From positions 1-36,499 of the forward strand of contig JBFLZW010000066.1 of assembly GCA_040755755.1 (NCBI GenBank): a stretch of 36,499 bases of DNA, written 5' to 3'. The notes below the pieces were generated by a model. The model ran no database searches. It was given only the letters and a program-made list of their open reading frames with translations, and was not told the DNA's origin. The translations under genes were made by a program, and so were the position numbers. This stretch comes from a bacterium (GTDB taxonomy: Bacteria; SZUA-182; DTGQ01). This document shows, in pieces, positions 33,103 to 35,822 of this stretch. How positions within the stretch are numbered: position 1 is the stretch's first letter; each line of letters begins with the position of its first letter.

Positions 33103-33140
33103 GGAAGTGCCTCTATTTGTAGACATATGCGATTATCAGC

Positions 33141-33431
33141 TCTATTGCGAATGGCACTTACATAAGAATTAGTAATTCTCCCGCAGAGACGCTGAGACGC
33201 AGAGGATGTCATTGAAAAGTAAGAGTAAAATAAGTTCCTCCTTGTGCCTTTTTACTTTTTGCTTGCTTCCAGGCCGTTGACACATCGGCATATCCCGACT
33301 TTCATCAGGGCCTTGTCGGATTGGTTGTTCTCTGCGTCTCTGCGTCTCTGCGGGAGATCGTTTTTCCCTGTGCGCTTTGTGTTCTCTCTATAATTATAAG
33401 CTTGGCTTATGTAAGTGACATTCGCTCTATT
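33141..33431. mobile_element. MITE-like element with nested inverted repeats and flanking direct repeat
   Basis: The left end GCGAATGGCACTTACATAAG (33147-33166) and the right end CTTATGTAAGTGACATTCGC (33406-33425) are inverted with one mismatch in 20. Inside them a second inverted pair (33177-33204 and 33330-33357) matches 27 of 28 bases, starting TCTCCCGCAGAGACGC. Immediately outside both ends stands TCTATT (33141-33146 and 33426-33431), a probable target-site duplication, possibly TCTATTGC. No transposase gene fits in the 279 bases, so it would be moved in trans. A 13-base match to the left end (CGAATGGCACTTA) lies at 35708-35720. Confidence 0.65.
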
Positions 33432-33543
33432 GCCTCTTCACAACTTGCTTTGTAAAGGAGAGAGGGGATGTTTTGCCGATTAATCTATAAATTATTCTCA
33501 CTAAAAAATTACCTTATAATGAAATGAAAGGCGGTAAAATCTC

Positions 33544-34506
33544 ATGAGACCACGCACCATCTTCATGTTTTCCGGACAAGGTTCCCATTACTATCAGATG
33601 GGAAGGGAAATTTTTGAGCAGAATCCAGTCTTTCGGAAATGGATGCTGGAGGGGGAAAAGATCGTATCCGGGCTTATCGGGGTATCGATAATTGATCAAA
33701 TTTACCATAACGGTTACAAAAAAAGTGATCAGTTCAGCCGCACGTTATATACTCATCCTGCAATCTTCCTGGTTGAATATGCATTAGCACAGGCAGTGAT
33801 GGAGATGGGAATACAACCTGACTATTGCCTTGGTGCAAGCCTCGGAGTATTCGCCGCTGCCGCTCTGGCAGATGCAGTAACCTTTGAAGCGGCATTAACC
33901 ACTGTGGTCAGACAGGCTCAGGCTATGGAGGCGCTTTGTTCTCAAGGAGGCATGATGGCAATTCTCAATCCTCCTGCCCTGTATTTTCAAAATCCTCTCT
34001 TTCATGAAAACTGCGAGCTGGCGGCGATCAATTTTCCCTCTCATTTTGTGGTCTCAGGCGGGCTCAAGCCGCTGTCCGATATCCAGACCTTCTTGGAGGA
34101 GAGAAAAATCACCTTTCAACGGCTGGCTGTATCTCACGCTTTTCACTCATCGCTCATTGATCCTGCCGAAGTCACTTACCGGAATTTTTTAAACACTCTT
34201 GTTCTCCGGGAGCCGCGGATCCCTTTTATCTCGTGTTCAGATGCACACATTCTGCCATATATACACCGGGATTATTTCTGGGACACTGTTCGTCTTCCGG
34301 TTCAATTTCAAAAAACCATTCAGTCATTGGAAGAACACGCAGAGCACGCGCCTTATCTCTATCTTGACCTTGGCCCTTCGGGAACACTGGCTTCCTTTGT
34401 GAAATATAACCTGAATCATCAATCGCGTTCAAAAAGCCTGAGCGTCCTCAATCCTTTCGGCCAGGAAGCCAAAGCCCTTGAAAGATTGAGGAGTTTAATG
34501 CCCTAG
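33544..34506 (+). CDS. Malonyl-CoA-type acyltransferase, trans-AT polyketide clade
   Basis: 320 residues, a stand-alone acyltransferase. It begins TIFMFSGQGSHYYQMG and has the strongly trans-AT-like stretch SRTLYTHPAIFLVEYALAQA. The nucleophile is S99 in GASLGVF, where FabD enzymes have GHSLGE. R123 and H201 (SHAFH) complete the usual active site; the HAFH motif is associated with malonyl specificity. The GASLG form, as I recall it, is common among PksD/PedC-type proteins, some of which are acyl hydrolases that clean stalled polyketide carriers. No polyketide synthase, carrier protein or ketosynthase is in the window, so the partner lies outside or is lost. AAAGGCGG is the ribosome site. Confidence 0.85.
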   Translation: MRPRTIFMFSGQGSHYYQMGREIFEQNPVFRKWMLEGEKIVSGLIGVSIIDQIYHNGYKKSDQFSRTLYTHPAIFLVEYALAQAVMEMGIQPDYCLGASLGVFAAAALADAVTFEAALTTVVRQAQAMEALCSQGGMMAILNPPALYFQNPLFHENCELAAINFPSHFVVSGGLKPLSDIQTFLEERKITFQRLAVSHAFHSSLIDPAEVTYRNFLNTLVLREPRIPFISCSDAHILPYIHRDYFWDTVRLPVQFQKTIQSLEEHAEHAPYLYLDLGPSGTLASFVKYNLNHQSRSKSLSVLNPFGQEAKALERLRSLMP

Positions 34507-35683: not shown

Positions 35684-35719
35684 ATGAAATGCCTATAGAA
35701 GCTAACACGAATGGCACTT

Positions 35720-35822
35720 ATGAGAAAGGCAAGCGAGCACATGGAGGGTGGGGCTGCTTTTTTGCCCCACCAAATACCGCCCGCGATCTTCCTGGTCGAG
35801 CCTGACTGTCCGCGGATTTATC
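35720..35822 (-). repeat. REP-like hairpin repeat, copy B
   Basis: Reverse-complement copy of 18625-18725, about 90 percent identical over 100 bases with two single-base gaps. The stem-loop core is perfect here: GGTGGGGC, AAAAAAGCA, GCCCCACC (read on the minus strand). The 5-prime side abuts the 13-base match to the MITE-like terminal repeat. Confidence 0.8.

Follow-up and report, generated by a model that had tools for sequence, protein, structure and literature searches.

A 275-bp MITE with ends of the IS4-subgroup type, dispersed through a bacterial genome and lying upstream of an acyltransferase gene

The short segment characterized here, which lies near one end of the window (the whole stretch of DNA that was analysed, 36,499 nucleotides, corresponding to contig C66 of a 5.26 Mb host genome assembled in 88 contigs), can be assigned with high confidence to a new family within the well-known class of MITEs, and its ends are of the type found in the IS4 subgroup (Table 1). 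The window element is short (its 275 bp fall within the roughly 50-1000 bp usual for MITEs), lacks a transposase gene, and has both terminal inverted repeats and a target-site duplication, while the family to which it belongs is present in multiple dispersed copies, for one of which (the L026 insertion) an empty site can be seen. We consider it very probable that the element is moved in trans by an IS4-family transposase of the IS4 subgroup, which leaves a 10-bp duplication at its target.

Table 1. Positions, within the window, of the MITE, its repeats and the neighbouring gene
Feature	Coordinates	Strand	Remarks
MITE	33149..33423	+	275 bp; boundaries from aligning 30 same-genome copies
Left terminal inverted repeat GAATGGCACTTACATAAG	33149..33166	+	18 bp
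Right terminal inverted repeat GAATGTCACTTACATAAG	33406..33423	-	1 mismatch
Target-site duplication GCTCTATTGC, left copy	33139..33148		10 bp
Target-site duplication GCTCTATTGC, right copy	33424..33433		10 bp
Inner inverted repeat, left arm, CAGAGACGC-type palindrome	33177..33204	+	
Inner inverted repeat, right arm	33330..33357	-	
Acyl transferase domain protein gene (PF00698)	33544..34506	+	outside the element

When the 30 same-genome copies are aligned, the true ends of the element prove to be GAATGG...CCATTC, with terminal inverted repeats that pair at 17 of 18 positions in the window copy and perfectly in most of the others, and the window element is flanked on both sides by a perfect copy of GCTCTATTGC. 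The preliminary description had already read this segment as a MITE, and that reading is supported with small corrections to the ends and to the duplication. Its outer arms (33147-33166 and 33406-33425) do pair at 19 of 20 positions, as reported, and its inner arms at 27 of 28; however, the outermost GC pair of the 20-base outer repeat belongs to the duplication, which itself begins and ends with GC and so mimics an extension of an inverted repeat that is in truth 18 bp long. Similarly, TCTATT is present on both flanks but is only the middle of the full 10-bp duplication. No ORF of 100 or more amino acids overlaps the element, which has no significant coding capacity, and the outer 20-mer has no further match in the window (0 expected in shuffled sequences).

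Beyond the window, the further genomic copies of the ends that the preliminary description had suggested looking for are abundant. BLAST with the element region listed some 40 genomic matches of element size, most of them 92-100% identical, and the 18-bp end, at up to three mismatches, has 134 matches in the host as opposed to 6 for a reversed-pattern control. About 30 copies are near full length, to which are added those broken by contig ends, and the copies have sharp common boundaries and unrelated flanks. Among the 89 distinct ends of the family, 59 are in two-ended elements and 30 are solitary, mostly at the ends of contigs. Eight pairs of these solitary ends, on contigs that break off within the element, carry identical 10-mers, and each pair thus represents the halves of one insertion split by the assembly; the contig ends that could be joined across an element copy in this way are C35/C31, C46/C11, C73/C20, C12/C17, C16/C13, C38/C39, C64/C29 and C78/C84. 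There are, in total, roughly 40-50 insertions of the family in the host, a number that the contig breaks leave uncertain, and their amplification was apparently recent. One copy (L041 997-1116, on C24) is internally deleted to 120 bp and has kept both ends.

The duplications were examined for 30 element pairs, mostly of the MITE family together with a few related elements. A perfect 10-bp duplication was seen in 22 of them, and a match of at least 9/10 in 24. The perfect duplications differ from one insertion to the next and take the form NNNYTARNNN: in all 24 good duplications, positions 5-6 are TA and follow a C or T at position 4, and 21 of them have A or G at position 7. TAA or TAG occupies duplication positions 5-7 at 101 of the 119 distinct ends for which 300 or more bases of flank are available. 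The six pairs that lack a good duplication point to later rearrangement or to recombination between copies. YTAR contains the stop codons TAA and TAG, and when ORFs of at least 150 codons are considered, 4 of 23 YTAR insertions fall exactly in a stop codon as compared with 21 of 443 background YTAR sites (Fisher p = 0.03), a small excess that is only suggestive and for which we make no claim. Elsewhere in the window, a solitary GAATGGCACTTA at 35709-35720 follows AAGCTAACAC, a YTAR-like context, and may be what is left of an old element.

A search of relatives for an empty site, also proposed in the preliminary description, was successful for the L026 insertion: the corresponding region of G001, a genome of the same genus, reads without interruption through CTCCTCCATTAAGCCTGCTCTCCATGC, with one CCATTAAGCC and no element (empty-site sequence, CTCCATTAAGCC). 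The full-length element has no match in G001, the other genome of the genus, or in the other family members sampled. At up to two mismatches, end matches number 0 in G001 and 125 in the host, and in G002 and G003 there is one each, at two mismatches. For two other insertions (L010 and L021), a relative has conserved the neighbouring genes and has no element close by, but the junction itself is not cleanly spanned by the alignment. At the window site itself, the acyltransferase gene is present in G003; its upstream spacer is not conserved and could not be aligned, and no end-like sequence was detected at that locus with a 12-base core at up to two mismatches.

That several contigs end inside the element, and that some copies have mismatched flanks, might be taken to indicate a repeat spread passively by recombination, or even an artefact of assembly. 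We regard this as extremely improbable, given that long contigs enclose most of the copies, that each of these has a private 10-bp duplication, and that one empty allele is seen in a sister genome.

The MITE ends match those of a known group of insertion sequences. Members of the IS4 subgroup are 1400-1650 bp long, have ends of the form -AATR--------WTW---- and generate duplications of 10-13 bp (De Palmenaer et al. 2008, PMC2266710); GAATGGCACTTACATAAG fits every defined position of that consensus (PMC2266710), and the 10-bp duplication of the MITE falls within the range. A scan of one genome per species located the exact 18-mer end on 74 DNA stretches, mostly from beta- and gammaproteobacteria, and among these are complete elements. 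One of them (L144), whose transposase is about 459 aa long, measures 1,532 bp and has the same ends, with the 10/10 duplication ACGTTAAGCC flanking it on either side. A second (L105), with the same ends and a 9/10 duplication, encodes a transposase that matches the NF033592 IS4 family at 2.9e-68 and PF01609 at 4e-18. A plasmid of Acidovorax carolinensis (L236 458-1989) carries a 1,532-bp element with the same ends and with GTATTAAGGC flanking it on both sides, whose transposase is a relative of that of L105 at 89% identity. The Y(2)R(3)E(6)K motif is visible in the transposase translations, including that of L105. The window MITE therefore resembles the IS4 subgroup in its terminal pattern, NAATR(8)WTW, and in its 10-bp duplication, whereas the complete relatives encode a YREK transposase and the MITE does not. 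No sequence common to the MITE and the complete elements was noticed beyond the 18-bp ends, and as only the ends are in common, the MITE is not obviously the product of a simple internal deletion of those insertion sequences. MITEs with the same ends are found elsewhere, among others in Polaromonas (L095 and L106, 199 bp; L121, 224 bp) and in Ca. Muproteobacteria (L145, 186 bp), all with 10/10 duplications of the YTAR or YTAC type; their likeness to the window MITE is known from ends and duplications, and their lengths differ from its 275 bp.

The preliminary description had called for a transposase with matching ends, and one is indeed available, in the IS4 family of other organisms but not in the host assembly. 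There, a PF01609 search gave five partial matches and an NF033592 search three partial matches below the cut-off, none of them in an element with GAATGGCACTTA at both ends; one partner protein used as a query had no match, and a three-protein profile retrieved only a fragment at a contig edge on C35, again without GAATGGCACTTA at both ends. The YREK transposase and the 1400-1650 bp length typical of the subgroup are seen in same-ended relatives in other genomes and were not found in this assembly. Two remnants of other transposase genes that abut an element end (C33:111805 and C41:37678) were rejected as partners and are apparently targets. As many contigs end inside these repeats, a partner element of 1.5 kb with repeats on its flanks may have dropped out during assembly or binning.

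This absence from the host assembly is what might favour a mover from outside the IS4 family, such as a different DDE family whose ends are similar. Such a mover seems to us improbable, as identical 18-mers and 10-bp YTAR duplications bound IS4-family elements elsewhere, and as the ends and the duplication length fit the published IS4 subgroup. Under the preferred assignment to the IS4 subgroup, in which the moving enzyme is deduced from other species since the host assembly has no transposase with these ends, the transposase would bind the 18-bp ends in trans and move the 275-bp unit, presumably by cut-and-paste chemistry like that of the Tn5/Tn10-type IS4 enzymes. The unit would then be joined to its target at a stagger of 10 bp with YTAR in the middle, giving rise to the 10-bp duplication.

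The element folds far more stably than its shuffled counterparts (z = -9.0), and it is situated, as the preliminary description stated, just upstream of the acyltransferase gene, with the right duplication ending 110 bp before the ATG. Strong folding in this position is what one might expect of a fixed structured sequence belonging to the gene, such as a regulatory RNA, a terminator or an attenuator. We give this almost no credence: dozens of copies with sharp ends and duplications are scattered over unrelated loci, the element matches no family in a search of Rfam, and the two nested inverted repeats account for its folding. A simple scan for an outward promoter directed toward the acyltransferase gene produced minus-strand matches only, close to the number expected by chance.

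The inner CAGAGACGC palindrome of the MITE is, judging from the sequence, most likely a passenger that makes the unit fold, and any role for it in transposition would be hypothetical. It had been suggested that such repeats can travel as cargo inside mobile elements. That idea is partly supported: the motif is found inside more than one kind of repeat, and it also occurs outside these elements. CTCTGCGTCTCTGCG has 104 occurrences in the host versus 30 for the reversed-pattern control; it is absent from the same-genus genome, but some other members of the class have it, as do unrelated genomes. Host copies of the palindrome outside GAATGGCACTTA-ended elements are about 70-100 bp long, some of them bounded by, for example, TGTTGTCTTACCAATATGAGCG. 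Stand-alone palindromes of this length, of the form CGCAGAGACGCAGAG...CTCTGCGTCTCTGCG, are seen at L206 (C1:120800-121200), L208, L210, L211, L213 and L219 (G000); several are bounded by sequence resembling CGCTCATA or TATGAGCG and possibly constitute a second MITE type with the same palindrome. One could speculate that the CAGAGACGC palindrome is a mobile or selfish unit in its own right, which has invaded several unrelated MITE families of the host (GAATGGCACTTA-ended elements and repeats bounded by sequence resembling CGCTCATA) and also exists alone in distant genomes, but we think this rather unlikely; if true, one miniature element would be hitchhiking inside others. The same genome also contains related but distinct elements, apparently older (L059 1962-2105, L060 1842-1986, L057, L062, L063, L179, L180 and L181). 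Among them are elements with ends GAATGGCACTTACAGAAG / CAGAACG and a length of about 144 bp when two-ended, and others end in CCTAAG or CACAGG.

Among the papers listed when the literature was searched for the sequence of the end or of the palindrome, none was relevant. Two MITEs from other bacteria offer points of comparison. Like the window MITE, BrickBuilt of Porphyromonas gingivalis contains a short repeated motif, a minisatellite, but this is a 23-nt tandem repeat as opposed to the inverted CAGAGACGC repeat described here, and BrickBuilt differs further in that its ends resemble ISPg1/ISPg9 and its duplications are irregular (PMC4596501). The hupL MITE of Candidatus Thiomargarita nelsonii has 10-bp direct repeats and a 19-bp inverted repeat, with matches on 260 of 439 contigs, and its authors did not identify a parental IS in ISfinder (PMC4853749). 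Its likeness to the window MITE is one of description and serves as a lead: the hupL MITE may have the same IS4-type ends.

As bacterial MITEs of such a sort are well known, the wider significance of the element is modest. For the host, the copies fragment the assembly, and their matching 10-bp duplications allow at least eight pairs of contig ends to be joined. What emerges is a defined MITE family that common ends and a common type of duplication tie to IS4-subgroup transposases, and an 18-bp end by which IS4-type elements and MITEs can be recognized over a wide range of bacteria, for the most part beta- and gammaproteobacteria.
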